Shown one piece after another: positions 15,812 to 20,905 of a stretch of DNA of 34,598 nucleotides. Source of the stretch: a virus. Position 1 is the first letter of the stretch. Each line of letters starts with the position of its first letter. The stretch is from the IMG/VR virus record IMGVR_UViG_3300013094_000148, positions 1-34,598 of that record; one strand, given 5' to 3'. The notes beneath the pieces are model-generated. The model saw only the letters and a program-made list of their open reading frames with translations. It made no database searches and was not told the origin of the DNA. Both the position numbers and the translations under genes were made by a program.

Positions 15812-16495
15812 ATGAAAGAACCGTATTTTGTCTTAGTCGCTGGTAGCGGCACAAGTTCCCGAGCAAACACTGAAGCACTCATGGAAGACCATTACTACGC
15901 TAATGGCTCTGAGGGCACCTTTGTGCTTGCCTTTGATAAGTCACCCACAAGAAGCCAAACAGTGGCTGCTCAATATGCTCAAGGGCAGAAAAAAGACATC
16001 GTTATTTTTTGCCACCCAGGGGGCATGACCGCAGGACTTCCTGCTGGCACGCTGGTTGAAAGCGCGACCCCTATTGTCGAGGCAATTGAGTTTCTCAAGG
16101 GCAAGAAGGCTACCGCCATGCTTTTGTGGGCAGATGAGGATAGCCACTGCTCCCTAGCCCTCCATGAAGCCACCGCCGTGGGCATCCCTTGCTTCGACCT
16201 GTCTAACGGGTTACTTCCCCTTACTGAAGTTTCGGGCGCAGAAGCCCCTATAGAGCCCAAAATACCTCAACAAGAACAATTACCTATAGACACAGAGTCT
16301 GAGGTCGTTACAGAGGTCGTAGAGGACGATTTTGAGGGTTATGAAGAGGAGTACGAGGAAGAGGAAATCGAATCTGACCTCGAAGATGAGCTCTACGAGG
16401 CTGTATGGCCGTTTGCCTCTGTACTAGCCGAAGCCTTCGCCCAAGCCCTTGTAGAGCAACTCAAGGATATTTTTGTGGTTAAGGGCAGCGAGTGA
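15812..16495 (+). CDS. Unidentified protein, possible nucleotide-binding fold with acidic tail
   Basis: The 227-aa protein starts MKEPYFVLVAGSGTSSRAN, a strand-glycine-rich-loop start, and has further hydrophobic strands DIVIFCHPGG and TAMLLWADED and then GIPCFDLSNGL. This order resembles Rossmann-like SLOG/LOG-type nucleotide-binding domains, but no signature is decisive. From about residue 145 a linker leads into a strongly acidic stretch (many Glu/Asp, about 170-195) and a C-terminal hydrophobic helix. It overlaps the next gene by GTGA. Function unknown; its start is controlled by a hairpin-embedded ribosome binding site. Confidence 0.6.
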   Translation: MKEPYFVLVAGSGTSSRANTEALMEDHYYANGSEGTFVLAFDKSPTRSQTVAAQYAQGQKKDIVIFCHPGGMTAGLPAGTLVESATPIVEAIEFLKGKKATAMLLWADEDSHCSLALHEATAVGIPCFDLSNGLLPLTEVSGAEAPIEPKIPQQEQLPIDTESEVVTEVVEDDFEGYEEEYEEEEIESDLEDELYEAVWPFASVLAEAFAQALVEQLKDIFVVKGSE

Positions 16496-17352
16496 TATCT
16501 GCCAGAGCCCTAGGGGTCCTACACAGGCTTCATACCATAAAAGAGCAGCAGTCAGCCGTAGAGTTAGCTGAGTACTTCAAGGAGGGCAAGCATGCCATGA
16601 GGGCATCCTTGGTCGAACTTGAGTCGCTTGGACTCATAGAGCGAAAAACCGTCCGTATTGGCACTCGCTACGTCCACACCCAGAAGGTAACTGACGAGGG
16701 TAGGGCTTACCTCGGTTTTTCGGAACCCGAAATTGGGAGTCCGAAAATCAGACCCCTAATACAACTGAACAAGCTAAATAACTCATTAGATACTAATAAC
16801 TCATTTAGTGTTATAACTCTTAAAAGTAATTCTCACGAAGTGAGAAAGGAAAAAACGATGGGCTATGAATTTTTTAAAAAGAACTCAAGCCTCGATGACG
16901 AAGAGTTTGAAGCCGCCCGCCTCAAAGCCGAGAAAGAGCGGCAAGTCGAGTACCGAGAGCAGAAGATGCTCTCCTCCGCCAAGACCGCGGAGATTAAAGC
17001 CAACCGCCAGCCCAAAGACTGGAGCGTCAAAGACTCGGTACATGAGTTTGCTGACCGCATGAGTATGACGTGGGGAATCCCTCCATGGAACTTTGCTGAG
17101 ACGCCGTTCTTTCAGGCTTTTGGTAAGAGCCGAAAAAAGTACATGACCAAGGGTGATGTTGAGCTAGAGATGATAAATATTTTCTACAGCAACTTAAAAA
17201 TTACTCGCGGTCTTACTACAGGAGACCTTTTGTGGAAACAATTTATCGCCCAATACGCGACACTTGCAGAACAGGCCAAACTGCGGTTAAGTACTCCCCA
17301 ACAGATTGAGCAGGCTCTTCAAGAGTCTGAAGATTCTTGGAAGGGGCTTTAG
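16492..17352 (+). CDS. Lambda-O-like replication initiator with winged-helix N-terminus
   Basis: GTG 16492 begins a 286-residue protein. Residues about 1-80 look like a winged helix (RALGVLHRLHTIKE, then AVELAEYFKEG, MRASLVELESLGLIERK and a wing near TRYVHTQKVTDEGRAYL). An Asn/Ser-rich linker (about 88-120) is encoded by AT-rich repeated DNA. The C-terminal part (about 123-286) is charged then helical (DWSVKDSVHEFADRM, WGIPPWNF). Next comes a DnaC-type loader, the same order as lambda O-P. Likely binds an origin and recruits the loader. A second start inside (ATG 16858) has a good ribosome binding site. Confidence 0.6.
   Translation: MISARALGVLHRLHTIKEQQSAVELAEYFKEGKHAMRASLVELESLGLIERKTVRIGTRYVHTQKVTDEGRAYLGFSEPEIGSPKIRPLIQLNKLNNSLDTNNSFSVITLKSNSHEVRKEKTMGYEFFKKNSSLDDEEFEAARLKAEKERQVEYREQKMLSSAKTAEIKANRQPKDWSVKDSVHEFADRMSMTWGIPPWNFAETPFFQAFGKSRKKYMTKGDVELEMINIFYSNLKITRGLTTGDLLWKQFIAQYATLAEQAKLRLSTPQQIEQALQESEDSWKGL
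16759..16826 (+). repeat. Four iteron-like repeats in AT-rich DNA, candidate replication origin
   Basis: Copies are centred on AAC at 16763, 16780, 16798 and 16815: AATACAACTGAACAAG (degenerate), AATAACTCATTAG, AATAACTCATTTAG and ATAACTCTTAAAAG (partial). Spacings are 17, 18 and 17 bp, so they are not all in the same codon phase and the repeat is at DNA level. From 16776 the sequence is strongly AT-rich. Position in the linker of an initiator-like gene parallels lambda ori within O. Confidence 0.5.
16830..16860 (+). promoter_or_regulatory. Hairpin plus internal translation start in the O-like gene
   Basis: TTCTCAC (16830-16836) and GTGAGAA (16840-16846) form a perfect 7-bp stem with a GAA loop. 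It abuts AAGGA (16846-16850), which lies 7 nt before the in-frame ATG 16858. Initiation here would give a 164-residue C-terminal product lacking the winged helix. Confidence 0.45.
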
Positions 17353-18038
17353 TGTTTAAACTTGAAGACTTAAAAGTCGGTAGACGAAACTGGGTTAAAA
17401 CATCCGCAGTACCTGCTCGCAGAATTGGGTGGACTCTTGAGGATTGCACTAAAGCGCCAGAAAAAGTTCTAGCAGATGTTACTCGCTGGGTAGAAGCCGT
17501 TAAAGACGGAAAAATAATTTTGGATATTGGTGGTGACCACTGCGGTCGAGGACTTTTGATTTACGGCACACCAGGACAGGGAAAGACGACCATTGCCATC
17601 TCTATCCTTCAAGAGATGATTAAAACTTTTCCACTTGAAGCATTTTCTCCTGAAGAAGGAAACGTCCTTGTTCGTCCGTGCTACTTCACTACCTACAGCA
17701 ATCTATTATCCCTAAAAGGGGACTTGATGGAGTCAGACTATGACGAAAGTAAAAAGGTTTTGCTTGACGGTATTTACGGAGAAGCAAAAGATGACGCATA
17801 CAACATCCGTGTACTTGTCATTGACGATGTAGGAAACGAGCACATCACCGCATCTGGTTGGCAAAAAAATATGCTTCATCATGTACTTCGCACTCGATTT
17901 GATAATGGATTTCCTACTATCATTACTACTAACATTCCAAGAGCAAATTGGTCTGCTATTTACGGTGATGCGACAGGAAGCTTTATCAAAGAGTCTTCTA
18001 TTTATATTTCATTTCCTACAGATAAGGACCTACGATGA
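17352..18038 (+). CDS. DnaC/IstB-type helicase loader ATPase
   Basis: GTG 17352 (TAGTG overlap; GGAAGGGG upstream) gives 228 residues; an in-frame TTG at 17337 is less likely. Walker A is GTPGQGKTT at about 72-80 and Walker B is VLVIDDVGNE around 155-165, with an R-x-N-x-W-S-A-I-Y segment late in the fold. This is the AAA+ layout of DnaC/lambda-P-analogue loaders, which place the DnaB-type helicase on DNA opened by the initiator. The helicase gene is three genes downstream, supporting the role. Confidence 0.82.
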   Translation: MFKLEDLKVGRRNWVKTSAVPARRIGWTLEDCTKAPEKVLADVTRWVEAVKDGKIILDIGGDHCGRGLLIYGTPGQGKTTIAISILQEMIKTFPLEAFSPEEGNVLVRPCYFTTYSNLLSLKGDLMESDYDESKKVLLDGIYGEAKDDAYNIRVLVIDDVGNEHITASGWQKNMLHHVLRTRFDNGFPTIITTNIPRANWSAIYGDATGSFIKESSIYISFPTDKDLR

Positions 18039-18349: not shown

Positions 18350-18757
18350 GTGTTCAAGGGAGACATTAGCAATGACCTCCCTAAGCGCGTGATTGTCATT
18401 CTTGATACTTTTATTGAAGAGCAGGTAATTACTAAAAAGAAATTTAAAGTAGTACCAGTTAAAGAGAAAAAAGAAAAGTTTAATCGCGCACTTTTGAGTC
18501 GTCTTTATGTGTTTGCTCAGCGTGTCGGTTACACGATGGAGCTTGCTTCCTTTACATTAAATGAAGAAGAGCTTGAAAAAGTTATTGCTACTCTTGACAA
18601 CATGGGCACCAATCCATTTCGTTACTTTACGTCTTATGAGTCTGTGAACCACCTAGTCTCAGAACTTCCATATAGACCTGAGGTCGTAGGTGTTTTGGAT
18701 TTGCCAACAAGGCTGCTAAGGTACGGTCACTGGGGATTGGACTTCACACAACTATGA
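18350..18757 (+). CDS. Unknown replication-operon protein, 135 aa
   Basis: GTG 18350 starts directly after the upstream stop (TAAGTG). The N-terminal part is basic (ITKKKFKVVPVKEKKEK); a helical middle (LLSRLYVFAQRVGYTMELAS, then LNEEELEKVIATLDNMG) precedes a conserved-looking C-terminus YRPEVVGVLDLPTRLLRYGHWGLD. No domain is recognised. It overlaps the helicase gene by ATGA, so it is translationally coupled and likely serves the replisome. A role as a loader accessory or regulator is only a guess. Confidence 0.65.
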   Translation: MFKGDISNDLPKRVIVILDTFIEEQVITKKKFKVVPVKEKKEKFNRALLSRLYVFAQRVGYTMELASFTLNEEELEKVIATLDNMGTNPFRYFTSYESVNHLVSELPYRPEVVGVLDLPTRLLRYGHWGLDFTQL

Positions 18758-19983
18758 ATAAAGAATCGTTGCTTCTTAGCAAAGCTATCGAAGATAGGAC
18801 ATTAGCTCCTCTCTTCGATAGAGGCGTAAATGCTTCTTGGTTTGCAGACTCAGAAGATAAAAGAGTTTGGGGATTTGTACAAAACCACTTTTCTAATTAC
18901 GGAGAATGCCCAAGCCTTTCTGTTATTCAAGATAACTTTCGTTCATACAAACTATTAGAAGTAGAAGATAGCCTCGATTACCTTTTAGACGAATTGCTCA
19001 ATGCTCGTCGTAAGATTTCTATTAGCAACACTATTGGCAGTGCTATTACCGCTATCGAAGATGGCAATGACCATGAGACCGCTATCAACATCCTTCAAAA
19101 GGGTTTGGTAAAACTGGAAGAAGAAGGTCTTTCTAAAAGCACAGATATAGATATTACAGCTGACCCAATGAAAAACTGGGATGCGTATTTATGGCGCAAA
19201 GCTAACCCAGGTCTACTTGGTGTAGCAACAGGGTTTAAGACTATTGACGATGCCACAGGTGGTTTGCAGAACGGTCAACTGATTGTCATTGTTGCTCCGC
19301 CTAAGACGGGTAAATCTACCCTTGCTCTTCAGATTGCTCAAAATGTCCACATGCAAGGTAAAGTCCCGATGTTTCAATCTTTTGAGATGCGTAACGATGA
19401 GCAGTTATCTCGTTATATAGCGATGAAGGCTCGTGTCTCCCATAAGCGGTATACAGCAGGAGCGCTGACACGTGAAGAAGAGGGTCGAGTACAGGCAAAG
19501 CTTAAGTCTCTTGAGCATATGCGTGAGAAGTTTTGGCTTGTAGGTTCTGAGGGAGCAACAGTTTCCTCCATCGCAGGTAAGATTCAGATTCACCAACCAG
19601 ACATTGTTTTCATTGATGGTACTTATTTGATGATTGATGAAAACGACGAGGCGCCTAACAGTCCTCAAGCCATTACCAACATCACTCGTGGTCTTAAGAG
19701 GCTTGCTCTTCGTGTCGATAAGCCTATTGTTATTACGACTCAGATTCTTACTAACAAAATGAGAAATGGGCAAGTAACAGCTGACGCCATTGGTTACTCG
19801 TCCTCTTTCCACCAGGATGCAGATGTTATCTTTGGTCTACAGAAGGAAGATGACGCTGTAGAAGATATGCGCCTTTTGAAGGTTATCGCTAGCCGTAACT
19901 CTGGACCTGCCCAAGTGAATATGATGTGGGCGTGGGATACAGGTATGTTTAGAGAGATGAGCCCAGAAGACTATGACGCTTGA
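18754..19983 (+). CDS. dnaB: Replicative DNA helicase, DnaB/SF4 family
   Basis: The 409-aa protein has an N-terminal helical domain (1-140) and a RecA-like motor with Walker A APPKTGKST at 181-189, an F-E-M motif (QSFEMRNDEQL), Walker B DIVFIDGTYL, a sensor-like VITTQI segment and a C-terminal SSFHQDADVIFGLQ stretch. This is the order of DnaB-type helicases. It unwinds DNA ahead of the polymerase and recruits the primase encoded immediately downstream (11-base overlap). It is slightly shorter than bacterial DnaB because of a reduced N-terminal domain. Confidence 0.9.
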   Translation: MNKESLLLSKAIEDRTLAPLFDRGVNASWFADSEDKRVWGFVQNHFSNYGECPSLSVIQDNFRSYKLLEVEDSLDYLLDELLNARRKISISNTIGSAITAIEDGNDHETAINILQKGLVKLEEEGLSKSTDIDITADPMKNWDAYLWRKANPGLLGVATGFKTIDDATGGLQNGQLIVIVAPPKTGKSTLALQIAQNVHMQGKVPMFQSFEMRNDEQLSRYIAMKARVSHKRYTAGALTREEEGRVQAKLKSLEHMREKFWLVGSEGATVSSIAGKIQIHQPDIVFIDGTYLMIDENDEAPNSPQAITNITRGLKRLALRVDKPIVITTQILTNKMRNGQVTADAIGYSSSFHQDADVIFGLQKEDDAVEDMRLLKVIASRNSGPAQVNMMWAWDTGMFREMSPEDYDA

Positions 19984-20905
19984 TGAGACAGAGGACATCC
20001 TTGAACGCTTAGGAATTGAGATTATCTCTATTAGAGGTAGAGAGATTCAAGCGCACTGCCCCGCCCACTTAGAGCGCACTGGTAAAGAAGATAGCAACCC
20101 TTCTTGGTATATCAATGCTGACACTGGAAAGCATATCTGTTTCTCCTGCCAGTTCAAGGGCGGTTTAACCACACTTATCGGGTACATGCAAGGTGACGAA
20201 TACATCGACACCAAAGAGTGGCTTGATTCGGGCTCCAGAGATTTACGTAGAGCTTTTGAAAGAATGATGACTCCAAAGCCTATTCCACAAAAGGTAGAGA
20301 ACGATATTACCGAGTCAATGCTCAAAGCCTTTACCGTGCCCTCAGATGAAGCGCTGTTATCTCGCGGTATTTCCCCCACAGCGGCTGCTTATTATGAGAT
20401 TTTATGGGATGCAAAAAACCTGAATTGGATTACCGTTATTAGAAACCCTTTTACTAACAAACTTTTGGGATGGCAAGAAAAAGGCTACAAGCAGCGTTAC
20501 TTCCGAAACTACCCTTCAGGAGTAGAAAAAAGCTCCTCATTATTTGGGTTTAAACAGTATGAGAGCGGTCCAATGATTGTAGTGGAGTCTCCGCTAGACG
20601 TGGCTAGATTAGCCTCTGTAAAGGTCTTAGGAGGCGTTTCTACCTATGGTGCAGCCGTATCCCATGCCCAACTTAATCTTATTCGTGGGGCAGAGCGAAT
20701 CATCATTGCAATGGACAATGACGATGCAGGGCGTGCCTCCTCTGAGAACCTCTTGAAGGCCGCTCATGATATGCACTTTGAGTGCTGGTTCTTTAACTAC
20801 TCCCAGACCGATAGGAAAGATGTTGGCGGGATGAGCAAGTCTGAGATAGTCTGGGGCCTTGAAAATGCACGGCATAGCATGCACGGCAGGAAAGCCTTTC
20901 TATGA
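19973..20905 (+). CDS. DNA primase (CHC2 zinc finger plus TOPRIM)
   Basis: The 310-residue protein begins at ATG 19973. A zinc ribbon C29-x2-H32...C56-x2-C59 is followed by a linker and a TOPRIM core with the acidic motifs VVESPLDVARL and AMDNDDAGR, as in DnaG-type primases. It lacks a long C-terminal helicase-interaction domain, so it is about half the size of bacterial DnaG. It makes RNA primers at the fork with the helicase encoded upstream. No strong alternative is seen. Confidence 0.88.
   Translation: MTLDETEDILERLGIEIISIRGREIQAHCPAHLERTGKEDSNPSWYINADTGKHICFSCQFKGGLTTLIGYMQGDEYIDTKEWLDSGSRDLRRAFERMMTPKPIPQKVENDITESMLKAFTVPSDEALLSRGISPTAAAYYEILWDAKNLNWITVIRNPFTNKLLGWQEKGYKQRYFRNYPSGVEKSSSLFGFKQYESGPMIVVESPLDVARLASVKVLGGVSTYGAAVSHAQLNLIRGAERIIIAMDNDDAGRASSENLLKAAHDMHFECWFFNYSQTDRKDVGGMSKSEIVWGLENARHSMHGRKAFL

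Follow-up and report, generated by a model that had tools for sequence, protein, structure and literature searches.

The window, by which we mean the whole 34,598-nucleotide stretch of viral DNA that was analyzed, carries a predicted replication initiator gene with genes for a helicase loader and a DnaB-type helicase downstream of it. The initial annotation had proposed the order initiator, DnaC-type loader, DnaB-type helicase and primase, and this order is borne out, the primase being of DnaG type and two small genes separating the loader from the helicase. The genes are as follows.

16492–17352, + strand: initiator gene encoding 286 aa, assigned from the ORF and its neighborhood, an alignment of 53 relatives and matches of family members to PHROGs replication-initiation, O-like or DnaD-like families
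17352–18038, + strand: DnaC-like AAA+ helicase loader (PHROGs phrog_50, E = 6.6e-30), a conserved neighbor
18754–19983, + strand: DnaB-like replicative helicase (PF03796, E = 3.4e-33; phrog_19)
19973–20905, + strand: DnaG-type primase (Toprim and zinc-ribbon matches; phrog_47)

The GTG start codon of the initiator gene overlaps the TGA stop codon of the preceding gene (15812–16495), whose product has a very acidic C-terminus and is without a family match; a gene resembling it occupies the same position in two relatives (L001 and L002). Four other relatives (L099, L241, L242, and L257) have an extra small gene between initiator and loader. No split-gene version of the initiator was found among the loci with enough upstream sequence.

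AlphaFold2, run with 53 sequences, predicted a confident winged helix, a disordered linker lying over the repeats described below and a helical C-terminal domain, in agreement with the earlier proposal of a winged-helix initiator-like protein with repeats in its linker. The N-terminal part of the gene is divided accordingly.

16492–16719, + strand: winged-helix domain, residues 1–76 (pLDDT mostly ~90 or higher; MarR-like fold; profile matches to winged-helix regulators)
16726–16869, + strand: disordered linker, residues 79–126, bearing the candidate origin elements (pLDDT below 50; third codon positions not relaxed among relatives)

In structure comparison the winged helix is similar to MarR-type domains (VIA Z of ~10–11 over 66–101 residues). 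Many members of the family match PHROGs families named replication initiation, O-like or DnaD-like; 14 of the 53 match phrog_678, "replication initiation O-like" (best E = 1.4e-5), although direct hhalign comparison with lambda O shows no such relation. For the C-terminal domain, no confident PDB fold or solved relative was found, and a viral structure library returned mainly uncharacterized phage proteins. A likeness to TRIP13 (best VIA Z 7.0, 83 residues aligned, rmsd 3.0) was too low to be trusted and was set aside. Residues 54–145 of the C-terminal domain model (window 17017–17292) weakly resemble AAA+ lid regions, which could hint that this domain docks on the AAA+ loader.

The initial annotation had described four related repeats in AT-rich DNA of the linker, with AAC cores at 16763, 16780, 16798, and 16815; the cores are indeed at these positions. 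The region contains the following elements.

16750–16829, no strand: AT-rich tract enclosing the iterons, a candidate DNA unwinding element
16774–16789, + strand: candidate iteron 1, CTAAATAACTCATTAG, whose exact 11-nt core is repeated 18 bp on; relatives show a two-copy arrangement with an AATAGC core
16793–16808, + strand: candidate iteron 2, CTAATAACTCATTTAG, as iteron 1; the two copies co-vary in the relative L005
16812–16822, + strand: weak partial third repeat, TATAACTCTTA, matching at ~8 of 11 positions, with its core at 16815

The AT-richness of the repeat region was as described: the best 60-bp window at the site has 47 A+T out of 60, equalled by 0.03% of the windows in the contig. 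The 11-bp sequence AATAACTCATT occurs exactly at 16777–16787 and 16795–16805, 18 bp apart, and nowhere else in the contig. Two strong copies, one partial and one degenerate had been counted; the two exact copies and the partial one stand, and the fourth (core at 16763), with ~6 of 11 bases matching, is not above chance. An 11-nt direct repeat within the 78-bp stretch has P = 0.003 in a dinucleotide shuffle, but P = 0.018–0.023 when the protein was kept fixed and only synonymous codons were varied, and with two mismatches allowed the AATAACTCATT motif is no commoner in the contig than in shuffles. Judged from the window sequence alone, the repeats thus have moderate support. The initial annotation had further argued that a 17-bp spacing, not being a multiple of 3, precludes protein repetition as their cause. 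With the two strong copies this argument breaks down, since their 18-bp spacing corresponds to six codons (NNSLDT/NNSFSV).

Comparison with relatives decided the matter. The initiator itself recovers few, and its DnaC-like neighbor recovers hundreds; relatives were collected via the loader, the initiator being taken as the ORF ending at the loader start. The loci taken were the best 80 per query of 387 loader-linked loci; 222 genes in 260 loci were reduced to 84, of which 80 non-redundant genes were used after three bacterial-genome loci and one partial gene had been left out. The encoded proteins share the winged helix and the C-terminal domain, and the linker varies. Since the nearest isolated phages by DNA polymerase are Streptomyces phages (~40% identity) and every loader match lies in phages of Actinobacteria, the host of the window virus is likely to be actinobacterial.

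Across 222 pairs of relatives anchored on the stem described below, linker identity at codon positions 1, 2, and 3 was 0.58, 0.54, and 0.58, compared with 0.64, 0.71, and 0.41 in the C-terminal domain and 0.53, 0.62, and 0.36 in the winged helix. The window and its nearest full relative, L005, gave the same picture (0.58, 0.53, and 0.68 in the linker; 0.75, 0.80, and 0.51 in the C-terminal domain). Third codon positions of the linker are thus as conserved as first and second positions, unlike those of the C-terminal domain, and this comparison of sequences indicates that the disordered linker is under constraint at the DNA level. Short linker repeats at lags of 8, 16, 17, 18, and 31 bp exceed a synonymous-codon null in which the protein is kept; with 18 clade representatives, z = 2.5–3.1 was obtained at every one of these lags, and lags not divisible by 3 account for 189 repeats against 144 ± 16 expected, z values and counts that overstate significance because the relatives are phylogenetically non-independent. 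The linkers contain 76 copies of AATAGC, where its frequency in the rest of the loci predicts 1.1, and AATAGC-type cores recur at 16–18 bp in relatives, and also at 8 and 31 bp. In L005 both repeat copies carry the identical change, AACTCATT to AGCTCATT, a pattern that recognition of both sites by a single protein would predict. When whole genomes were scanned for the densest ATAGC cluster, the origin did not stand out in most of them, the motif being too short and too variable from clade to clade. The earlier conclusion against protein repetition is rescued on other grounds, since relatives space their repeats by 16 and 17 bp and the codon-position test points the same way; the check that had been suggested, namely conserved repeat positions without conserved linker residues, favors an origin.

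Directly 3′ of the AT-rich repeats, the initiator gene contains a DNA hairpin followed by an internal start, both of which the initial annotation had missed.

16830–16846, no strand: DNA hairpin TTCTCAC-GAA-GTGAGAA (family-wide stem counts, compensating changes, ssDNA fold)
16847–16850, + strand: Shine-Dalgarno (SD)-like AGGA
16858–17352, + strand: internal in-frame ATG and predicted short product of 164 aa comprising the C-terminal domain only (start in every gene scored; domain model; GiJojo gp100, see below)

In the family, the hairpin has a GC-rich stem of 5–8 bp and a loop mostly of 3 nt (3, 4, and 5 nt occur, and ~9 in L099). When the search was anchored only on the AT-richest 45 nt of each gene, a stem of at least 6 bp was found at +42 to +78 in 66 of the 80 genes, against 1.3 expected after synonymous recoding, and no other place within the gene approached this count. 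Two clade members, L176 and L181, show no clear stem. Among 74 odd-loop stems, which have 29 different 5′ arms, the inner five pairs are Watson-Crick in 367 of 370 cases and G·T in none, and all 135 synonymous single changes able to create a G·T pair are unused. Differences in stem pairs between close relatives, which are phylogenetically non-independent, comprise 93 double compensating changes and 2 single ones; L058 and L065, for example, differ by a compensating double change in linkers that are 98% identical. For the window stem, a stable ssDNA fold is predicted for either strand (−5.1 and −4.8 kcal/mol; z = −3.7 and −3.8). The absence of G·T pairs points to selection on the stem as DNA rather than as mRNA, and the variability of the arms in sequence and of the loop in length favors a hairpin over a duplex operator. 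Since the distance from stem to internal start varies from 9 to 45 nt and that from stem to AT-rich tract is nearly fixed across the family, the stem appears to be tied to the origin rather than to translation.

An intrinsic terminator was considered and rejected for both strands: on the + strand no T-run follows the stem, and on the − strand a scan scores the stem as terminator-like, with the tail TTACTTTTAA, but there is no convincing − strand gene there. L005 retains this − strand tail, and other clades (e.g. L031) are without a T-run. Rfam gave no match to a known RNA family at the stem. A second stem, TTTCGG-AAC-CCGAAA (6 bp, 3-nt loop), lies 5′ of the iterons at window 16718–16732; strong GC-rich hairpins occur near this position in L241 and L099, but the family as a whole does not share it.

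An in-frame ATG, GTG or TTG lies within 60 nt 3′ of the stem in all 78 genes scored, at 9–17 nt in most of them. A strict SD (AGGA, GGAG or GAGG) accompanies it in 58 of the 78; the corresponding rates are 5.2% for control windows and 7.6% for in-frame start-type codons further on in the gene. Among the remaining 20, several carry a near miss, for example GGGG or GGAA. The internal start is GTG in 33 of the 58 strict-SD genes, and GTG makes up 21% of the valine codons in these genes. A short product consisting of the C-terminal domain would be made from this start. An SD precedes the full-length start in only 10 of 79 genes, which is consistent with translation of the full-length initiator by coupling to the upstream gene. 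Comparison across relatives supports both the hairpin and the internal start well as features of the family; the functions proposed for them below are our reading of these features.

Cumulative GC skew, which the initial annotation had suggested as a check, has its minimum in the window at 15.2 kb, 1.6 kb from the site, with flanking genes running mostly in the same direction on both sides. The minimum lies within ~1.1 kb of the homologous site in four of nine long relatives (G003, G004, G010, and G016) and, after detrending, in two more (G008 and G014), making six of nine; it is elsewhere in the remaining three (G001, G005, and G015). The minimum is thus close to the site in the window and in four to six of the nine relatives, and we treat skew as supporting, not decisive, evidence for an origin.

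Together, these results strongly support, by comparative evidence, an intragenic iteron origin in the initiator gene. The candidate origin of the initial annotation is supported by the codon-position test, repeats above the synonymous null, the predicted fold, the PHROGs matches and the nearby skew minimum. The comparisons likewise favor DNA-level selection on linker and stem, a conserved stem–tract geometry, an internal start with its SD, a conserved gene order and the predicted fold. In our view the locus is very probably a theta-type origin lying within the reading frame that encodes its own initiator, comprising iterons, a melting tract, a stem and an internal start for a short product. 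From this we infer iteron binding, melting, a role for the stem, production and a role of the short protein, and origin activity, in the following manner. The full-length initiator, made by translational coupling, would bind the AATAACTCATT iterons via its winged helix, and its assembly there would melt the AT-rich tract. The C-terminal domain would then recruit the adjacent DnaC-like ATPase, which would load the DnaB-like helicase, to be followed by the phage primase. Once the strands are separated, the stem-loop would fold in the single-stranded DNA and mark the bubble edge or hold it in place, serving as a boundary or a loading site for helicase or primase, and the product containing only the C-terminal domain could supply an extra loader adaptor or limit initiation. 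The more specific proposal that the triloop stem is an ssDNA hairpin site placing the loader–helicase or primase at a dsDNA phage origin, with the same gene making the initiator and a separate loader adaptor, is tentative, and we rate it as possible rather than probable.

Several other explanations were weighed against an origin. That the repeats merely reflect a repetitive, low-complexity protein linker fits the six-codon spacing of the strong pair, with NNS encoded twice, and the modest P of ~0.02 when the protein is fixed; it is contradicted by linker third positions that are as conserved as the first and second, and by relatives that repeat similar cores at 16 and 17 bp, so that we regard it as highly improbable. 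The locus might instead be a regulatory region, with a winged-helix autorepressor acting on the repeats and the AT-rich tract containing a promoter from which the short product and the replication genes further downstream are expressed. The MarR-like winged helix and the internal start with SD that follows would suit such a region, in which DNA-level conservation is equally expected. Its probability nevertheless appears low, given the initiator–loader–helicase–primase context, the skew turning near the site in several genomes and the PHROGs naming of replication initiators; no sigma-70-like promoter was found in 16400–17400, though host promoters may differ. Initiators often autoregulate too, and the origin and regulatory readings can coexist.

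The stem itself could be accounted for in two further ways. It could be an RNA element controlling translation of the internal start, being situated 9–17 nt upstream of the start codon, beside the SD, in most genes. Such an element would be expected neither to avoid G·U-type pairs (0 of 370 inner pairs despite 135 synonymous routes) nor to keep a nearly fixed distance to the AT-rich tract at a start distance of 9–45 nt, and with no Rfam match as well, we consider it improbable. Less easily dismissed, if still unlikely, is the idea that a dimeric protein binds the palindrome as a duplex operator, since perfect symmetry without G·T suits any DNA-level palindrome; against it stand the 29 different 5′ arms, arms that change between relatives with linkers up to 98% identical, and loops of 3, 4, 5, and ~9 nt (the last in L099).

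With an intragenic origin as the preferred reading, comparative evidence assigns one to a large set of phages that are uncultured and probably actinobacterial. Their initiator is without a close relative in the collection of phages searched, tblastn against the annotated phages having given no match. The family also offers a natural experiment in which an origin-adjacent DNA hairpin has been rebuilt many times with new sequence, making its role directly testable. If the proposal of an ssDNA stem and a loader adaptor is true, one short stretch would be origin, linker and gene start at once.

The predicted pair of products has parallels in plasmids. TrfA of RK2, π of R6K and RepR′ of pIGRK are in-frame short initiators made from an internal start codon, and the short forms of π and RepR′ restrain initiation (PMC6854812). 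One gene with two in-frame products acting in replication control would be common to these systems and the window, where the short product is predicted from a conserved internal start with SD; the known cases are plasmid proteins, and the predicted short form here is without the entire winged helix. With a conserved internal start in a phage initiator, this control device would reach beyond the handful of plasmids in which it is known. A probable stand-alone homologue of the C-terminal domain is gp100 of Streptomyces phage GiJojo (PP725410; L298:2822–3298), matched with E = 1.3e-4 but a probability of only 54%. It directly precedes gp101, a DnaC-like loader clearly related to that of the window, and differs in being a separate protein of 159 aa without winged helix or AT-rich iterons. 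Close to the start of gp100 there is an 8-bp GC-rich stem (GGGGACTC...GAGTCCCC). Mycobacterium phage JayJay gp203, tried as another stand-alone C-terminal domain, was unsupported by hhalign.

Among phage origins, oriL of Bacillus phage SPP1 lies inside gene 38, followed by loader and helicase genes in the order 38-39-40; by the published description it shares with the window direct repeats and an AT-rich unwinding element in the initiator gene, with loader and DnaB-type helicase next (PMC6316719). In lambda, the central part of gene O contains four 18–19-bp iterons and an AT-rich tract, and P follows (PMC7466680, PMC3349717). The initiator gene of the window likewise has both elements in a central position, with the loader gene next: its spaced repeats are conserved as DNA within the coding sequence, in two strong copies rather than four, and its AT-rich unwinding region encloses the iterons rather than lying beside them. 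The lambda-style arrangement of iterons inside an initiator gene beside a loader, which the initial annotation had invoked, thus agrees, with the difference that the loader here is a DnaC-like AAA+ protein. Hhalign found no sequence relation between lambda O and the window initiator; the anatomy appears lambda-like, the initiators not being demonstrably homologous. Lambda also carries an inverted repeat with 12-nt arms (L297 563–590; NC_001416 ~39162–39189) directly 3′ of its AT-rich tract. Inverted repeats are similarly placed in phi80, PhiR12_2, PhiR70_1, and phiES15, four of six other lambdoid O genes, and the same rule found none in HK544 or mEpX1, so that this feature is not universal in lambdoids. 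The window hairpin shares its placement directly 3′ of the AT-rich tract and is roughly as far from the AT maximum; the conserved internal start with SD distinguishes the window, none being seen on inspection after the lambda inverted repeat. The role of the matching inverted repeat in lambda ori likewise becomes testable, and if the stem and adaptor act as proposed, that repeat would be the counterpart of the hairpin described here.
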